DNA of 64,000 nt from Candidatus Saccharimonadota bacterium (lineage in GTDB: Bacteria > Patescibacteriota > Saccharimonadia > Saccharimonadales > Saccharimonadaceae). Below the pieces are notes generated by a model. It was not told where the DNA came from. It did no database searches and saw only the letters and a list, made by a program, of their open reading frames with translations. The stretch covers positions 124,001 to 188,000 of the forward strand of contig JAFYXW010000001.1 in assembly GCA_017557865.1 (NCBI GenBank), read 5' to 3'. Below are positions 48,906-56,253 of the stretch, one piece after another. Within the stretch, counting starts at the first letter, position 1; each line of letters begins with the position of its first letter. A program made the position numbers and the translations under genes.

Positions 48906-49958
48906 CTATCCGGCTTTGTATAAGCCAGTATGACGCGCTCCGTCATAAACCATAGTTGGGATACCTTTAACGCGAAGCTCATTTTCTACAATGTCACGAT
49001 TCTCTTGCATTTTGTCGGTAATCTCTGGGTATTCTACAACTTTACGCACTTCCGAAATTGCCCCTTTATCAAGCCCGTCGGCTTTAAGCCAGGCCTCTAA
49101 CTGTTTTACGGCTGTTTCATGGTCGAAGTCTTCATTGAATAAGTTTTGGTAAGAAATGCCGTTCTCATTTTTTTCGGTAAAGATGTGGTCGAGTAGTTTT
49201 ATCGCATAGCCGCTATACAGTTGCTCCACTGCAAACATATACTTTACGATAATCTCAGAATTTTTAAACTTGTAATTGTTGTCAGAATCTTGAATTGCAA
49301 ATGGCACTAGGCGCACATTGTAATTATCAAAGAATCCAGATGACTTTTGGTTGCGATAAGAAATCATACAAACCGAGCAGCCTGGGTCAAAAATGTCGAG
49401 TGCGATCGGTTTTTCCTCGGCGCCGTTAGTATCTAAATCAATATAATTAAAATCGTAATCCTCTGCCTTATAGGTGCGGAATTTGTCTGGAATCGCCTCA
49501 AAGATTTCGCCCCACTCGGTAAACCATCTGCCGGTTGCTTCAATTGGGTTTTGTGGTTCGCTTTCGTCGATTGAACAAACTTCTGCGCCAAGCGAACAGG
49601 CCGAAGGTTTTGTTACGTTGCAGCTACCCAACGCCCAAAGCGCAAGTAAAGATTTGATAGCCGTAAGGAGAGCCCACACGGCAATGATTACGATTAAGAC
49701 TGAAATGATTTCAATGATTACTGACAATGGCTTTACCCATTTTGGATGTTTTACGATTATACGACTTAGTAATGTATTTTTTACATCATCCTTAAAACCG
49801 GTTTCGCATTTTTGTAAGCGTACCTTTTTCCATAAACAGCCCCAGGCCTTTTTAAACATTTTGAGATAAGCTTTGCCTACCTTTGGTTTAAAGATAGAAA
49901 TAATGGCAACAAAGATGCCAATTAGAGCTAGTATTATAAAAGCAGCTATACACACCAT
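48906..49958 (-). CDS. Membrane DsbA-like thioredoxin-fold protein
   Basis: 350 residues: N-terminal hydrophobic segments (about 3-22 and 80-105) and a large extracytoplasmic thioredoxin-fold domain with active site CSVC (IFDPGCSVCMISY) and cis-Pro loop KGIPTMVYDG. Further Cys pairs (SCNVTKPSACSLGAEVC) follow the second helix. Likely makes or exchanges disulfides in exported proteins, such as the Cys-rich cutinase fusion. Single-gene unit. Confidence 0.82.
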   Translation of the reverse strand: MVCIAAFIILALIGIFVAIISIFKPKVGKAYLKMFKKAWGCLWKKVRLQKCETGFKDDVKNTLLSRIIVKHPKWVKPLSVIIEIISVLIVIIAVWALLTAIKSLLALWALGSCNVTKPSACSLGAEVCSIDESEPQNPIEATGRWFTEWGEIFEAIPDKFRTYKAEDYDFNYIDLDTNGAEEKPIALDIFDPGCSVCMISYRNQKSSGFFDNYNVRLVPFAIQDSDNNYKFKNSEIIVKYMFAVEQLYSGYAIKLLDHIFTEKNENGISYQNLFNEDFDHETAVKQLEAWLKADGLDKGAISEVRKVVEYPEITDKMQENRDIVENELRVKGIPTMVYDGARHTGLYKAG

Positions 49959-50002: not shown

Positions 50003-50031
50003 TTGACTATTTTAAGAGAGAGTGATATACT
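50003..50031 (+). promoter_or_regulatory. Promoter of HAD-like gene
   Basis: TTGACT at 50003-50008, 17 nt, TATACT at 50026-50031 with TGA before it. Same class as 1105 and 1925. Confidence 0.8.
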
Positions 50032-50063
50032 ACAATCAGTCTGATAGAAAGGGGGGACGTAAG

Positions 50064-50738
50064 ATGGTGGTATTTACTGACCTATCGGAGGTCCTTATAC
50101 ACGGTATTTATGGCATGGAAGACATTGTGGCTAGAGACCACGGTGCAGAAGTTAGCAAGAGATTTTGGGAACGTCACGATGAGGTAAATGACAAGATTCT
50201 GGAGCTCTTTCGCGATAATTGCAAAGAGGATGATTATTGGCAGGCAATTCTTGAAGATGGAAGTTTGCCGTTCTCCCTTAATTACATCAAGCATGTACTT
50301 TCGGAGAACATCCAGCGGGTTATCCCTGGTACTTTAGATGTATACAAAAGCATCACATCTCATCCCAGAAGCGTCAGTATCAATGGCGTACCTAGTGGCG
50401 ACAGGCTTTCCGGTCGTCCCGACATTTACATCGTTTCGGACCATATCAAAGAAAGATTGGGTCAGTTAAAAAGAGCCCATCCCGACCTCTTTGATGCGGT
50501 TACCGGCGCCTATTGGTCGTGTGACATTGGCAAAATCAAAGGTGATCCTGACTTCTTCCCTACAGTCCTGAGTGTGTCTAACTTGCCGGCAGAAAAGATT
50601 GTTTTCGTTGATGACATCGAAAGAAACGTCGATTCTGCCAGAAAAAGCGGTATCTACAGTATTCTGTTTAAGGATGCCGACCAGCTGAAACTTGATTTTG
50701 AAAAAATCGGGTTCCGGTTTGACAGTAGGGATCTTTAG
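50064..50738 (+). CDS. HAD-superfamily hydrolase-like protein
   Basis: 224 residues. Motif I is VFTDLSEVL: nucleophile Asp present, the usual second Asp replaced by Ser, as in several subfamily IA proteins that are not classic phosphatases. IVSDH (motif II), GKIKGDPD (motif III Lys) and VFVDDIERNV (motif IV) follow. A loop after motif I cap, SVSINGVPSGDRLSG, may be an insertion. ATG at 50064 behind AAAGGGGGG. Confidence 0.82.
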   Translation: MVVFTDLSEVLIHGIYGMEDIVARDHGAEVSKRFWERHDEVNDKILELFRDNCKEDDYWQAILEDGSLPFSLNYIKHVLSENIQRVIPGTLDVYKSITSHPRSVSINGVPSGDRLSGRPDIYIVSDHIKERLGQLKRAHPDLFDAVTGAYWSCDIGKIKGDPDFFPTVLSVSNLPAEKIVFVDDIERNVDSARKSGIYSILFKDADQLKLDFEKIGFRFDSRDL

Positions 50739-50768
50739 CGATTTCGCTGGGGATCTTTATTGCGATTA

Positions 50769-50797
50769 TCCCTCGTCTGTATAGACGGGGGATTTAT
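50769..50797 (+). terminator. Terminator of HAD gene
   Basis: 9-bp stem CCCTCGTCT / AGACGGGGG (one T-G pair), loop GTAT, weak tail ATTTATT. Confidence 0.7.
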
Positions 50798-50800
50798 TGT

Positions 50801-50809
50801 GTGATATAA
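50801..50809 (+). promoter_or_regulatory. Extended -10 promoter of ncRNA candidate
   Basis: TGATATAAT at 50801-50809; TAGACG 17 nt upstream could act as a weak -35. Expected transcript start is about 50816. Confidence 0.65.
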
Positions 50810-50814
50810 TTAGC

Positions 50815-51114
50815 ACTGAATCGGTTAGTACGATTGTTATCATATGGCGAGGCTGCTCACCCCTTTGCGCTTCTTAATAGGCGCAAGTATGACACACGAA
50901 GGGACGCCTTGCGGTCGTGAGCAAGGGGCCCCGCAGGTGCCGTGCCATAAGGTAGTGAGTGTGCCGTTGAACCTCCTTTCTTTACAAATTTATCGGAGGC
51001 TAGCACTTTAAAAGTTTTCCGAGCGATCATTGGGCGCGCTTAACACGTGCGCCCGAAAAATCGTGTACTTTCTAAAAACATTTTATCCCGTCTATTATGA
51101 CGGGATTGTTTTTT
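50815..51114 (+). ncRNA. Structured non-coding RNA candidate, family unknown
   Basis: About 300 nt with no credible frame and raised GC. Seen in order: closing stem AGTAC-GAT (50826-50833) with ATC-GTACT (51059-51068); TATGGC (50842-50847) with GCCATA (50943-50948); TGCTCAC (50853-50859) with GTGAGCA (50916-50922); hairpin TTGCGC/GCGCAA (50864-50885); CCTCC/GGAGG (50971-50998); GGGCGCGC/GTGCGCCC with loop TTAACAC (51031-51053). Own promoter and terminator. RNase P (GAGGAAAGTCC), tmRNA (T-arm, CCA end) and SRP hallmarks were not found. Confidence 0.65.
51084..51114. terminator. Strong terminator of ncRNA, bidirectional
   Basis: 8-bp stem ATCCCGTC / GACGGGAT, loop TATTAT, then TTGTTTTTTT on the plus strand; the minus strand also has a T-run shortly after, for the convergent aminotransferase gene. 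Confidence 0.85.
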
Positions 51115-52277
51115 TATTGCAAAACTTTACTTAGAACTTTTTTGATCTTTTCGATATCTTCGGGGCGGTTATGAATACCAAGTGAAAATCTAATTAGCGG
51201 TGGTAAGCCAAGAACGTGATCTAGATAATAATGCACACAGAAATAACCAGTACGCGCCATGATGTTCTCGCGAGAGAGTGCCTCGCCGAGAAGATGTGAG
51301 TCTAAGCCTTCTACATAAAAAGTCATGGTCGGGTTTGGCTCTTTATTAATCATGTGCACACGTGGCGAACTAACCAGAAAATCGTATAATTCTTTGGTAT
51401 TGTCTTCTAAATTTTTCCAGTCTTTTTTTGGTAGTTTTTCGAGCCAATCTAGTGCAGCGTTAAGCCCAATAATTTCGCCCCATGCCTGAAGCCCCGATTC
51501 AAAACGAGTATAGCGGTGTTCTTTGCCTTCGGCGGAAAGCGTGTACGATTCTTTTTCTACATCATCTACCATGCCACCGCCCAGGAATCGCTCGTCCAAG
51601 TGCTTAATTAGATCGTCGCGCCAAACAATTACACCAAGCGATGGCGCATACATTTTGTGCGCCGAGAAACAAATTGCGTCAACTTCTACACCACGAATAA
51701 TATCGGCAGAATGAGACATCGCCTGTGCGGCATCGATAATAATAATGCCACCAGCCTTGTGCACAACCTTGGTAAGCTCGGCAATATTTAAAAGTTTGCG
51801 TCCGTCAAAGTTGGACGCACAGTTTACTACCACGACGGCCTTTGTAAAATCGTAATCAGCGATGTTAATTGAGCCGTCATCATTACGCTTCATTAGTTCA
51901 CGTGGCAATCCGGTGCGCTCTGAAAAAGCAATCGTAGCAAGAAATGGAGAGTTATGCTCAATTTCCGAAGTCATCACTTTCTTGAAGTCGCCACCTTTTA
52001 ACTGGTTTAAAATCAAGTTGATACCATAAGTGGTGTTAAGAGTAAAAGAAGTAGTATATTTGCGCGGTGATAGTTTTACGAACTTCAAAACCTTTTCGCG
52101 GGTTTCCTCAACTTTTTCGTCTGTGATGCGACCCCATTTGTATTTAACACGCTCGCCGCAGGAATTATGTTCGGTATAATATTTGTTTAATGCCTCGATT
52201 ACTGGGCGCGGGCGCAAGCTTTGACAAGCTCCGTCTAGATATACTTCCCCCTCACCTAAATAGTCAAAATCGTTCAT
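51114..52277 (-). CDS. Class V aminotransferase, SufS/Csd-like cysteine desulfurase
   Basis: 387 residues, PLP enzyme. Substrate region SEIEHNSP, IIDAAQAMSH, PLP Lys in SAHKMYAPSLG, and ARTGYFCVHYY whose Cys matches the SufS persulfide Cys. Would supply sulfur for tRNA thiolation or Fe-S clusters (QueH needs one). No sufBCD nearby. The ATG lies seven bases after TGCTATAAT (52285-52293): leaderless. Confidence 0.87.
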   Translation of the reverse strand: MNDFDYLGEGEVYLDGACQSLRPRPVIEALNKYYTEHNSCGERVKYKWGRITDEKVEETREKVLKFVKLSPRKYTTSFTLNTTYGINLILNQLKGGDFKKVMTSEIEHNSPFLATIAFSERTGLPRELMKRNDDGSINIADYDFTKAVVVVNCASNFDGRKLLNIAELTKVVHKAGGIIIIDAAQAMSHSADIIRGVEVDAICFSAHKMYAPSLGVIVWRDDLIKHLDERFLGGGMVDDVEKESYTLSAEGKEHRYTRFESGLQAWGEIIGLNAALDWLEKLPKKDWKNLEDNTKELYDFLVSSPRVHMINKEPNPTMTFYVEGLDSHLLGEALSRENIMARTGYFCVHYYLDHVLGLPPLIRFSLGIHNRPEDIEKIKKVLSKVLQ

Positions 52278-52327: not shown

Positions 52328-52759
52328 TTAAGACAGATAATCTTTTTCTGTCTGGTAGTACTCAGGTGGGAGCCCCACACCTGCACATAGTTCGTCGATT
52401 CGGTTTTTAATAATTTCGATTAGTTCTGTTGGCAGAGTGCCATAAACTTTGGTAATCCCCTTCTTCATATGAAAAAGAGTAATTGTTTCAATAATCCCCA
52501 GAGCAATAGCTAGCGTCGAAATGAAAGAAGTCATCCCTAACAAAAGGTAAATGACAACAAGAATTGCTCCTTTCGTCACAAAAAGGCTGTTCAAAATTAT
52601 TAGAATAATCTCGACAGCAAGTGAAGAAAAACCCCACGTAAATAAAGTAGCAATTTCCTTTTTTAAAAATAAGTATTTAAGCAAAGTTAGCTGCCGAATG
52701 TCTAGAGTTTCGTTTGCAGACATTGCCATTGAGACCTTTTTGTTGTTAATGCGTTGCAT
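52328..52759 (-). CDS. Two-helix membrane protein, unknown
   Basis: No family recognised. 143 residues, with hydrophobic segments at about 38-60 and 65-92, soluble ends, and a C-terminal helix (TELIEIIKNRIDEL). AGGAGG-like site upstream. It follows the 560-residue solenoid protein by 14 nt on the same transcript, so it may be its membrane partner; that is inference from position only. Confidence 0.65.
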   Translation of the reverse strand: MQRINNKKVSMAMSANETLDIRQLTLLKYLFLKKEIATLFTWGFSSLAVEIILIILNSLFVTKGAILVVIYLLLGMTSFISTLAIALGIIETITLFHMKKGITKVYGTLPTELIEIIKNRIDELCAGVGLPPEYYQTEKDYLS

Positions 52760-52773
52760 TCTACCCTCCTTTT

Positions 52774-54456
52774 TTAACCAAGAGGCGCATATAGTGCCAT
52801 CTCCGGTGTGAAATAAAAGTGAATGAATTCTTCTTCGCTGTTGTACATAATTGTGTTATACGGCTGAATTATGTCTCCAACTTTAATTTTTACATACTTA
52901 TCTCCGTTTCTGATATAATAACTCTTTACGCCATAGTTTGAGCCAATAAAACCGACCACTTTGAAACTAAGAACGGTTTTGCAATTAGTCATGCAGGTAG
53001 TTGCCAAGGGGCGGATAAATCCTATGTCACGAATTCCACTTGCTTCAAGCAGCAATTCATTAGCTTCCAAAAAGTCTTTAAGCGCCGGGCATAAATGGTC
53101 TTCGTCGGTGCAAATCTCTACTTTTGCTACACCGTCGCCGCCAAGGCATTTTATGTAGTAAGTTCCCTTCGGATCAATACCAATCGGATCAAAAACTCCA
53201 TGCCCTTGAGCCAGGAAGCTTTGGATGAAGTCAGCATCAAGATGCTTGTCTATGGCTTTTCGAATTGCATTTTCTACAGCCTGACAGAACGAGACATCTG
53301 CTTTTTCTTTTTCCTCGAACATCTCCAAAACTACACTTGCGTAATCGCCTTGACGCTTGATTGCCATTAAAACTGTATTAAACAGTTCCTCGTCGTTGGC
53401 GGCCATTACTTCATGGAAGAAGGTTTCTCTAGAAGATTCGTCATCTTCTTTACCGTCATCTTCTTCATCGTCGTATTCATCATCGTCATCTTCTTCGATG
53501 TAGGATTCTTTGACCAAGAATTCGTGCGGATAGATCTCGTATTTTTCGCAAATATCGCTAAACACTGCAGGGTCTATAAACGAAAAGGCTTTAAAAAGCA
53601 AAGCATAGTCCGAGCCAAAAATACCGTTCGTTTCGAAATGGACTTTGATGGCCATGAGCCTTCTGTAGACACTGGTAGTGTCTGAGGTGAGCTCGTTTTT
53701 TATCCAATCGCAAAAATCATCTGCATCATAGCAGTCGTCGCCATGGAGAATCCAGCCTAAAAGCAACAAGGCATTTTTATCATTGATAAACTTGCCATCT
53801 AACGCATCGTCGACCAAAGAGTCGGGGTGGTATGCGCCCTCGTCATACCTATCAGATGAGAATACCAATGCAAAAACTTCTTCCACCGTAAGCGAATTTA
53901 GATTATCTGCAATTATACCAAGGTTAATGTCGTGTGATTTTAAAAGCCGTCTGGGATGAGTCATTTTTACAGCATAAGAAACCAAATAGTCCCTTATTTC
54001 ATCGCACAAGTAAAACTGGTGTCCTAAAACAGACATGATTTTTTCCATCAACTTGCTTTCATCATCTAGGTCGTCCAAAAGCTTTTCTAGAACCCAAACA
54101 TCATCTTTGTCAAGGTCCTGCATCATCGATCTGATACTACCTTGCGAGCTGAGCTCGTGGTCAAGCTCTTGAAGAAGAGAATGCGGTTCAGGTAAAGAGA
54201 AAATCTTATTCGGATCACTGACGAGCTTTAAAATAGGATAGTTGTAATTAATCGTTTGCGCAAACAACGATTTCGCGATTTTATTTCTTATAGTTTTTCC
54301 AAACTTTGTATCGGGACATTCCAAAACCGCTGAATAATACAAATTAACGGGAATGGATGTTCTTCCATAATTTAAGCCAGAAAAGAGTGAATAAATCGAC
54401 ATCACATCATGTTCTTTGATTGCCATTTCTAACGCATTATTAAACACATTTCTCAT
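52774..54456 (-). CDS. Alpha-solenoid protein with shared C-terminal domain (paralog A)
   Basis: No named family. 560 residues: N-terminal ~330 predicted helical repeats (DDVWVLEKLLDDL, LTVEEVFALVF, RRLMAIKVHFE), an acidic linker of almost only Asp/Glu (~residues 322-345), more helices, and a ~125-residue beta-rich C-terminal domain starting YYIKCLGGDGVAKVEI and ending FYFTPEMAL. Motifs line up one by one with the next gene upstream and the C-terminal domain with 58120-59577. RBS GGAGG before ATG. Cytosolic. Confidence 0.75.
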   Translation of the reverse strand: MRNVFNNALEMAIKEHDVMSIYSLFSGLNYGRTSIPVNLYYSAVLECPDTKFGKTIRNKIAKSLFAQTINYNYPILKLVSDPNKIFSLPEPHSLLQELDHELSSQGSIRSMMQDLDKDDVWVLEKLLDDLDDESKLMEKIMSVLGHQFYLCDEIRDYLVSYAVKMTHPRRLLKSHDINLGIIADNLNSLTVEEVFALVFSSDRYDEGAYHPDSLVDDALDGKFINDKNALLLLGWILHGDDCYDADDFCDWIKNELTSDTTSVYRRLMAIKVHFETNGIFGSDYALLFKAFSFIDPAVFSDICEKYEIYPHEFLVKESYIEEDDDDEYDDEEDDGKEDDESSRETFFHEVMAANDEELFNTVLMAIKRQGDYASVVLEMFEEKEKADVSFCQAVENAIRKAIDKHLDADFIQSFLAQGHGVFDPIGIDPKGTYYIKCLGGDGVAKVEICTDEDHLCPALKDFLEANELLLEASGIRDIGFIRPLATTCMTNCKTVLSFKVVGFIGSNYGVKSYYIRNGDKYVKIKVGDIIQPYNTIMYNSEEEFIHFYFTPEMALYAPLG

Positions 54457-54471
54457 ACGTGTACCTCCAAT

Positions 54472-54523
54472 AAAAAAATAAATTGTTAACGTTCCATTAA
54501 AAACCTTATCATTAATAATTATA
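54472..54523 (-). promoter_or_regulatory. Promoter and leader, shared with paralog B
   Basis: TGTTATAAT (hexamer 54523-54518). The transcript begins near TGATAAGGTT and includes ACGTTAACAATT and a T-run; the 15-mer at 54472-54486 and the 10-mer at 54502-54511 are identical to those before paralog B. Confidence 0.7.
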
Positions 54524-54533
54524 ACATATTTTT

Positions 54534-54567
54534 AGGAAAAATAAAAGGCTCGCCAGTGCGAGCCTTT
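54534..54567 (-). terminator. Intrinsic terminator
   Basis: 10-bp stem AAAGGCTCGC / GCGAGCCTTT, loop ACTG, then TATTTTTC on the minus strand; ends paralog B. Confidence 0.88.
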
Positions 54568-54589
54568 AAAAAAGGTGATAAGAATTAGG

Positions 54590-56176
54590 TTATTTGAATA
54601 ACGCGCGGCGCGCGTCTTTAAGCGTGAAATAAAAATTCAAAGTATAGTCCTTGTTTTCCTGGTAAGCAGTTCGGTCGACATTGATTCTAGTCCCAACCTC
54701 GAGCCCTACAAGTTCGCCGTTGTTCCCGAATATGCTAAAGGAATTCGTGCCAAACACATTGCCTTCAAAACGCACCACTTCAAACATTAATTTATCCTTA
54801 ATGCGTATCTTGTAACAAGACATATCTTTAACGTATCTGGGGTTATAAAAGAACGCATCTTTAAACCCACTTCCGACTATGCTGTATTCCGGGTTGCCTC
54901 CCCCCACTATTTTTACGACTGCTACTGCGGTGCCGCCAATACATTTAACGAAATATTCGCGGCCAATTTCAAGCGGAATATCTGGCAAATCATCGCCATC
55001 TTTTCCAGAATCAACCAACGCGTTAATAAAGAACTGACTAACCGGCTCGTGTTTCTTAACATTTTGGATGGTAGAAGAGAATGCTTCAGAAGCAGATATA
55101 TCTGGATCAGCAATTTTGTCAAGTAGAGCTTTAGTAACGCTCTTCTGATAATCGTTTCCGGAATAGAGGCTAACAAGTATTACTGGCAGATAATCCCAAA
55201 TTGGATAATCATATGAGAAAACGTCAGCCAGGAAGCAATTCGTAATTTCATCACCCGGTTTGGGATAGATGTTATACTTTCGTAACATTTTGGCGTTTTC
55301 TCCATTCGGGCTCAGCGATCTACCTGCGAAGCTCTGAAATACGTAGGGTAGCGTAGTAAAGACGTAACATCCCGCCAAAGTTTTGATTGCCATTAAGCGT
55401 TCAAAAGGTGATCTTCGTTTCGTGGCTTCATCTCTGACCCACATAACCATACCGTCGTTATCTAGTACATCAGAGCCTAGTTCAAAATAATAGCGAAGTA
55501 AAATCATTCTTTCCTTCATATTCAATTTTTCGATATTCTTCTTACCCTTAGGTACTCTGTAGCCAATATAGCTAACATCTTCCGGGCAGAAGAGTAGCCC
55601 AAAGACCTCCTCATCACTTAGCTCCGGGGCTAATTCACTGATTTCCTGCAGATTAAGCTCGGAATCTTCTAAGGCCCCGACACTTTCTTCGTTTGCTACA
55701 GCAAAGCGAATCAAATATTTTAAGACCTCTTTGTCCAGGCAATCACGAAGACAATGTTTCAAGATACACCCGGTAAGACAAGGCCCAGCAAAATAGAGGA
55801 TACGCTCTAGCATGTAGATATCAGACTCTTCCAAGTATTCTACGTAACTAATAACATAGCTACGACTTGACGTGTTAAATCCATCGTCAACGAATTTAAA
55901 AAATTCTTTTAGCCTCTGCAGCTTTGCATCTGAAATAATTTTTGGATCTTCTAACTCTTTTAAGAATGGATATGCTCCACACTCCGTGGGCAAAAATATT
56001 GCCCGAGCTATAGCTGCTCGCATGCTGGGGAGATATTCTTCGTCACAATATATCAATGCATCATAATAGGTGTGGAAAGAAATGTATCCGCCAACTTTAA
56101 ACGACGACAGAATAGCGACAGCGCTATCGTATTGGTCAAGTGAAACCGCGTCTTCAAAAAATGCTGATAAACTCAT
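54590..56176 (-). CDS. Alpha-solenoid protein with shared C-terminal domain (paralog B)
   Basis: No named family. 528 residues. Matches paralog A in order: ESDIYMLERIL, LSDEEVFGLLF, FERLMAIKTLAG, KYNIYPKPGD, and C-terminal domain YFVKCIGGTAVAVVKI ... VGTRI ... NFYFTLKDA. Lacks the acidic linker. ATG at 56176 follows AGGAGG; the longer frame runs into the leader. Monocistronic with its own terminator. Confidence 0.75.
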   Translation of the reverse strand: MSLSAFFEDAVSLDQYDSAVAILSSFKVGGYISFHTYYDALIYCDEEYLPSMRAAIARAIFLPTECGAYPFLKELEDPKIISDAKLQRLKEFFKFVDDGFNTSSRSYVISYVEYLEESDIYMLERILYFAGPCLTGCILKHCLRDCLDKEVLKYLIRFAVANEESVGALEDSELNLQEISELAPELSDEEVFGLLFCPEDVSYIGYRVPKGKKNIEKLNMKERMILLRYYFELGSDVLDNDGMVMWVRDEATKRRSPFERLMAIKTLAGCYVFTTLPYVFQSFAGRSLSPNGENAKMLRKYNIYPKPGDEITNCFLADVFSYDYPIWDYLPVILVSLYSGNDYQKSVTKALLDKIADPDISASEAFSSTIQNVKKHEPVSQFFINALVDSGKDGDDLPDIPLEIGREYFVKCIGGTAVAVVKIVGGGNPEYSIVGSGFKDAFFYNPRYVKDMSCYKIRIKDKLMFEVVRFEGNVFGTNSFSIFGNNGELVGLEVGTRINVDRTAYQENKDYTLNFYFTLKDARRALFK

Positions 56177-56191
56177 AACAAACCTCCTGAG

Positions 56192-56253
56192 AAAAAAATA
56201 AATTGTGAATGTCCAATAATAATAACCTAATAACCTTATCACTATATATTATA
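56192..56253 (-). promoter_or_regulatory. Promoter and leader of paralog B
   Basis: TATAAT at 56253-56248 preceded by TGT; leader carries AACCTTATCA (plus strand 56232-56241) and the 15-mer 56192-56206 identical to the leader of paralog A. Confidence 0.7.

Follow-up and report, generated by a model that had tools for sequence, protein, structure and literature searches.

What is encoded in the 375-base spacer that separates a HAD-type gene from a class-V aminotransferase gene in the window (the whole stretch of 64,000 nucleotides analyzed here)? Our sequence-only reading had proposed a structured RNA of no assigned family that carries its own promoter and terminator, and the comparative evidence described below supports this proposal. 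Positions 50817-51108 of the forward strand very probably contain a gene for a folded RNA of ~290 bases. We are confident that it represents a real, new, lineage-restricted structured RNA family with two orthologues, one of them in the related genome G208, and one paralogue, also in G208.

Organization and predicted fold of the locus

The spacer lies between the HAD-type gene (50064-50738, +) and the aminotransferase gene (51114-52277, -) and contains, in this order, a terminator-like hairpin of the HAD gene (50768-50793), an extended -10 element, a GC-rich stretch with a branched fold and a strong terminator. The main elements are as follows.

48906-49958 (-): conserved neighbour protein p6, directly following the aminotransferase gene in many relatives without the insertion
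50064-50738 (+): fast-evolving gene for a HAD-IA type hydrolase, directly upstream of the RNA, which it likely preceded at this site
50802-50810 (+): extended -10 element TGATATAAT; an identical 9-mer precedes the G208 homologue; predicted transcription start at ~50817
50817-51108 (+): RNA gene, predicted transcript, with ends placed on the basis of promoter, terminator, G208 homologue and pair retention
51085-51114 (+): intrinsic terminator, a hairpin (51085-51106) followed by TGTTTTTTTA
51114-52277 (-): convergent class-V aminotransferase (Aminotran_5), conserved in the genus; stop codon at 51114

Several signals that the sequence-only reading had claimed were found at this locus. The TATAAT of the extended -10 (50805-50810) has a TG one base upstream, and the -35 is poor (TAGACG, 50782-50787); the 9-mer was the sole long block identical between the window and G208 in the spacer upstream of the RNA. 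The strong terminator is present and probably serves the convergent aminotransferase gene too, and the GC content is raised (0.506 in the RNA region, 0.427 in the window). Two ORFs of 55 and 57 aa overlap the RNA, but its alignment with the G208 homologue contains indels that are not multiples of three, so no frame is kept, as the claimed absence of a coding frame implies. A cis-regulatory leader or riboswitch was rejected, the next gene being convergent (stop at 51114) with the terminator in between. Elsewhere in the window, the only Rfam match over threshold was the ribosomal protein L10 leader (RF00557, 56282-56402), a known cis-regulatory RNA. Positions 52328-56242 contain three adjacent minus-strand genes (143, 560 and 550 aa) that have no Pfam match; the 560 aa and 550 aa genes look related in architecture.

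The predicted fold consists of the following parts, listed with two sequence stretches discussed below.

50827-50831 (+): 5' strand of the closing helix P1 (AGUAC), pairing with 51065-51069; from the fold and the G208 comparison
50851-50965 (+): large branched 5' domain (P2, P3, P4/P5), missing from the second G208 RNA
50851-50864 with 50950-50965 (+): P2, outer helix within the 5' domain
50865-50886 (+): P3, hairpin within the 5' domain
50887-50945 (+): P4/P5, arm within the 5' domain
50935-50954 (+): 20-base conserved block AGGTGCCGTGCCATAAGGTA, identical in G208
50971-50981 (+): ACCTCCTTTCT, including CTCCTTTCT (50973-50981), a conserved stretch with complementarity to the genome's Shine-Dalgarno sequences
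50993-51022 (+): H1 hairpin UCGGAGGCU...AGUUUUCCGA of the conserved 3' core, in all three RNAs
51023-51064 (+): H2 (51023-51027/51060-51064) and H3 (51032-51039/51047-51054), the remainder of the conserved 3' core
51065-51069 (+): 3' strand of P1 (GUACU), pairing with 50827-50831; from the fold and the G208 comparison

The closing helix expected to join both ends is thus present as AGUAC/GUACU, although it is short (only 5 bp); in G208 one of its pairs is changed on both sides (G-C to U-A) and another on one side. The at least five internal helices that had been claimed correspond to P2, P3, P4/P5, H1, H2 and H3. The fold energy of the whole 300 bases gave z = -5.1. Without the terminator, z was only -2.1, and the reverse strand gave -3.35, so the case for an RNA does not come from energy, by which the structural argument is weaker than it seems. 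The evidence is the comparison with the G208 homologue, and on the strength of its conserved blocks, kept pairs and compensatory changes the claimed structure holds.

Homologue and paralogue in genome G208

We built a covariance model from the window sequence alone with its own fold and searched the 174 genomes of the genus. One true homologue was found (G208:C6:23101-23341, E = 2.1e-32). It belongs to a Candidatus Saccharibacteria MAG (GenBank contig CAMZIV010000006.1, uncultured Candidatus Saccharibacteria) and has the same synteny as in the window: HAD gene, RNA and class-V aminotransferase gene. The two RNAs are 74% identical overall, and the identity is concentrated in six blocks of 9-21 identical bases, while the spacers share short promoter-like blocks only. 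The conserved blocks in G208 are CGAAGGGAC, AGGUGCCGUGCCAUAAGGUA, CUCCUUUCU, UAUCGGAGGCUAGCA, UUUAAAAGUUUUCCGAGCGAU and AAAUCGUGU.

Pairing is also retained. In the alignment fitted to the model, which favours structure, 68 of the 76 pairs of the window-derived fold are intact in G208, with 54.5 expected (0/20,000 simulations). A structure-free alignment kept 65 of 78 pairs (58.3 expected, P = 0.0145). The consensus of the two sequences has 64 pairs, of which 17 are variable, 0 broken and 5 changed on both sides; since these two sequences also served to choose the consensus, the counts are a description more than a test. Covariation is thin, with 5 compensatory pairs and only two orthologues and one paralogue. 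Block conservation, pair retention and compensatory changes support the predicted RNA fold, and the search for homologues, with its one syntenic match and pair retention above expectation, came out in favor of the proposed RNA.

G208 contains a second RNA after the first one (~L089:1780-1900, about 120 nt). Its own promoter-like site, TTGCAT-17-TATAAT, could be read directly in the sequence, and its fold energy corresponds to a z of about -5. This RNA is without the large 5' domain but has the 3' core in common with the others (H1, H2 and H3), ending in CGUGU; its H1 is UCGGUGGCUCAGCCAACCGA, which shows one compensatory and two one-sided changes compared to the others. A core model was built from all three RNA sequences, so its matches include its own members, and among the 174 genomes the confident matches were these three source RNAs only (E = 1.4e-13 for the second G208 RNA). 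Weak core-model matches in two further genomes (G041 and G209, E 0.05-0.1 per genome) were treated as chance; the G041 locus had only GC-rich terminator-like hairpins. Because 164 of 500 column shuffles of the three core sequences reach the observed covariation value, covariation in the core is not established by the shuffles alone. In the two orthologues, a 37-base stretch of the core is nearly identical, including unpaired loop bases. Being common to all three RNAs, the 3' core is likeliest to be the functional heart of the molecule.

Occurrence, history of the site and identity of the RNA

The full model had no match in 172 of the 174 genus genomes. Searches of 393 genomes of the order and 380 of the phylum yielded no additional true match. 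A full-model match in one of the 393 genomes (G474, E = 4.6e-4) was rejected as the end of a coding frame, apparently for peptidyl-tRNA hydrolase, plus a hairpin. A DNA-level search of 100 relatives returned, besides the sequence itself, short chance matches only, and phage and plasmid records contained no similar DNA by distant blastn. Patterns of the 5' domain had no match in viral contigs; one viral contig that matched the H1 hairpin pattern (L096) was dismissed as chance, being GC-rich coding-like DNA with no full-model match. The same H1 pattern, run against 84,980 species genomes, matched G208 solely. Owing to their strict filters, the larger genome searches can overlook distant relatives.

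The history of the site could be followed through its neighbours. The aminotransferase gene abuts p6 directly in many relatives. In G141 and G204, the HAD gene occupies the same aminotransferase-p6 gap without the RNA, and about 80-95 bases lie between the HAD and aminotransferase stops. The aminotransferase protein of the window is 94% identical to that of G208 and 91% to that of G141, which places G141 outside the window-G208 pair. HAD genes are present in 22 of the 174 genomes, the RNA only in the window genome and G208. Since G141 has the HAD gene at this very site with ~90 bases replacing the RNA, a recent gain within a single clade is probable. The simplest history, judged from these sequences, would be that the HAD gene came first and the RNA later, in the ancestor of the window species and G208; loss of the RNA in G141 is a possible alternative.

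Additional observations were made on these neighbours. Besides ACCTCC, the RNA-less spacer of G141 (L104 2154-2250) contains a terminator and a -10-like TACAAT. It could therefore give rise to a very small transcript carrying an anti-Shine-Dalgarno core, which might represent a precursor state. HAD genes differ between species far more than their neighbours do, and their loci (L099-L120) are patchy and at different sites, at least twice adjoining an alaS-like gene; none was found in viral contigs. HAD leaders (window 50022-50063; L089, L104, L112 and L033) share a short element around AGTCTGATAA just past the promoter, also at different sites, though the proteins are only about 36-59% identical. 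This element may regulate a mobile gene or mark its boundary.

Could the locus be something other than a new RNA gene? It is quite improbable that it holds no RNA gene at all and instead consists of remnant DNA, encodes a small protein or is transcribed by read-through from the HAD gene. Such an interpretation would fit the unremarkable z of -2.1 without the terminator, the short ORFs (55-57 aa) and an HAD terminator poor in T residues, but it is contradicted by the extended -10, identity blocks, kept pairing and terminator present in two species, and by indels that break all frames. Even less probable, and largely refuted, is the idea that the RNA and the HAD gene form a single functional cassette of a mobile or defence-like kind. 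Both are inserted between genes that adjoin in many relatives, and between the two species both have diverged further than the aminotransferase (protein identity of 59% for HAD and 94% for the aminotransferase). However, only G208 among the 21 other HAD-bearing genus genomes has the RNA nearby, in G141 and G204 this exact site has the HAD gene but lacks the RNA, and phage and plasmid records lack similar DNA; the absence of the RNA from the remaining HAD-bearing genomes argues that the two are not one travelling unit.

A divergent housekeeping RNA (6S, SRP RNA, RNase P RNA or tmRNA) would account for length and stable fold only, and we consider it extremely improbable, as restriction to 2 of 174 genomes is not what a housekeeping RNA would show. 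Rfam 15 gave nothing above the gathering cut-off at the RNA locus and nothing credible at E<=10, sub-threshold matches being mostly to the terminator hairpin; together with the comparative evidence, this fits the option, raised in the sequence-only reading, that the RNA is new. That reading had correctly noted the lack of RNase P and tmRNA hallmarks: the genes for RNase P RNA (RF00010, G000:C8:13306-13649) and tmRNA (RF00023, G000:C8:9677-10031) are located elsewhere in the genome, with no match at the RNA locus. SRP RNA models were absent among the Rfam matches up to E 10 at this locus. The alternative option of a 6S-like RNA was not supported: 6S RNA (RF00013) is likewise standalone, with a closing helix and broadly similar length, but the window RNA had no 6S match at E<=10, is branched rather than a rod with a central bubble and was found in two species only. 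It resembles orphan bacterial ncRNAs (e.g. candidate structured RNAs, PMC2864571) in being structured, found through comparison and not assigned a function, and differs in being known from two genomes only. An origin as a copy of the 16S rRNA 3' end was also considered: no 16S rRNA was found in the genomes tested, and the RNA presumably resembles 16S rRNA only in the anti-Shine-Dalgarno stretch and in a short string, AAGGUAG.

Anti-Shine-Dalgarno stretch and possible mode of action

The RNA has its own promoter and terminator and no same-strand gene downstream, from which we infer that it acts in trans. Its likeliest identity is that of a regulatory RNA acting in trans, with the conserved 3' junction core as its basis. 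A candidate contact site is CUCCUUUCU, part of the 11-mer ACCUCCUUUCU, which occurs once in the window (0.03 expected) and whose complement is matched by the Shine-Dalgarno sequences of the window (AGGAGG/AAAGGAG). In both species, the CUUUCU part is predicted to be mostly unpaired and the CUCC part mostly paired, with GGAG at 50995-50998, or a local GAG in G208, as predicted partners in cis. The CUCC:GGAG helix excludes H1, which is better supported, so a conformational switch is conceivable; CUCCUUUCU may also be kept solely for the cis helix with GGAG. Pairing of the RNA with the HAD leader was predicted at -17.3 kcal/mol, rank 2 among 44 starts tested, a fit that is not special because many strong Shine-Dalgarno sites reach -16 to -19; in G208 it was weaker (-14.2) and involved different pairing. 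By these predictions, the stretch would bind many leaders, and the HAD leader is not unique.

Masking of a Shine-Dalgarno sequence by a C-rich unpaired sRNA stretch is established for RsaA (PMC3961350), which makes it a plausible mode of action for the window RNA and does not imply membership. Like RsaA and other C-rich RNAs of Staphylococcus aureus (PMC3961350), the window RNA has a conserved pyrimidine-rich stretch complementary to Shine-Dalgarno sequences; in contrast to them, it has no Rfam match, a much larger branched fold, a conserved 3' junction core and candidate targets only. AbcR1-type anti-Shine-Dalgarno sRNAs of Alphaproteobacteria (PMC6234868) are alike in the proposed antisense action at ribosome-binding sites, but the window RNA lacks an Rfam match, occurs in a different phylum and has a putative mechanism.

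Our preferred explanation starts from what was observed, i.e., conservation in the same position, strictly identical blocks, retained pairs and a promoter-like site for each RNA. A standalone RNA gene of ~290 nt would be a recent arrival, newly arisen or acquired, in a single clade of a Saccharibacteria genus. Its 3' half would fold into the conserved junction core (P1, H1, H2/H3), which may provide stability or protein binding, and CUCCUUUCU would alternate between a state held in cis by GGAG and a free state. When free, it could pair with Shine-Dalgarno sequences of mRNAs, the HAD mRNA being among the best fits, and such pairing would lower translation of the target mRNAs. We hold this anti-Shine-Dalgarno mechanism only tentatively, and rank it only slightly above another possible reading, in which the conserved 3' core is the working part (a protein-binding scaffold, decoy or ribozyme-like element), the CUCC stretch no more than a part of the linker and the 5' domain accessory. 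The latter is consistent with a core common to three RNAs, including the 37-base near-identical stretch, and with a second G208 RNA that has the core without the large domain; against it, no known ribozyme family was matched, and there is no recognisable cleavage site or known protein partner. The second G208 RNA has its CCUUUCU buried within a closing helix of its own, so that the anti-Shine-Dalgarno stretch and the shared core may serve separate functions. A bolder proposal appears unlikely: the RNA would be a new class whose modular core is catalytic or mimics the ribosome, with a recent origin at one datable site in a candidate-phylum bacterium of reduced genome size and with a shorter paralogue in the sister species.

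The host group consists of bacteria with genomes of about 700 kb, and small RNAs of Saccharibacteria, the window RNA included, did not surface in our literature searches. As a rule, large structured RNAs with transcription units of their own are old and found widely, whereas the window RNA is confined to 2 of 174 genomes of its genus. Its two-species range, an RNA-less site in a close relative and an adjacent paralogue in G208 would allow the emergence and first changes of a complex RNA to be studied directly.
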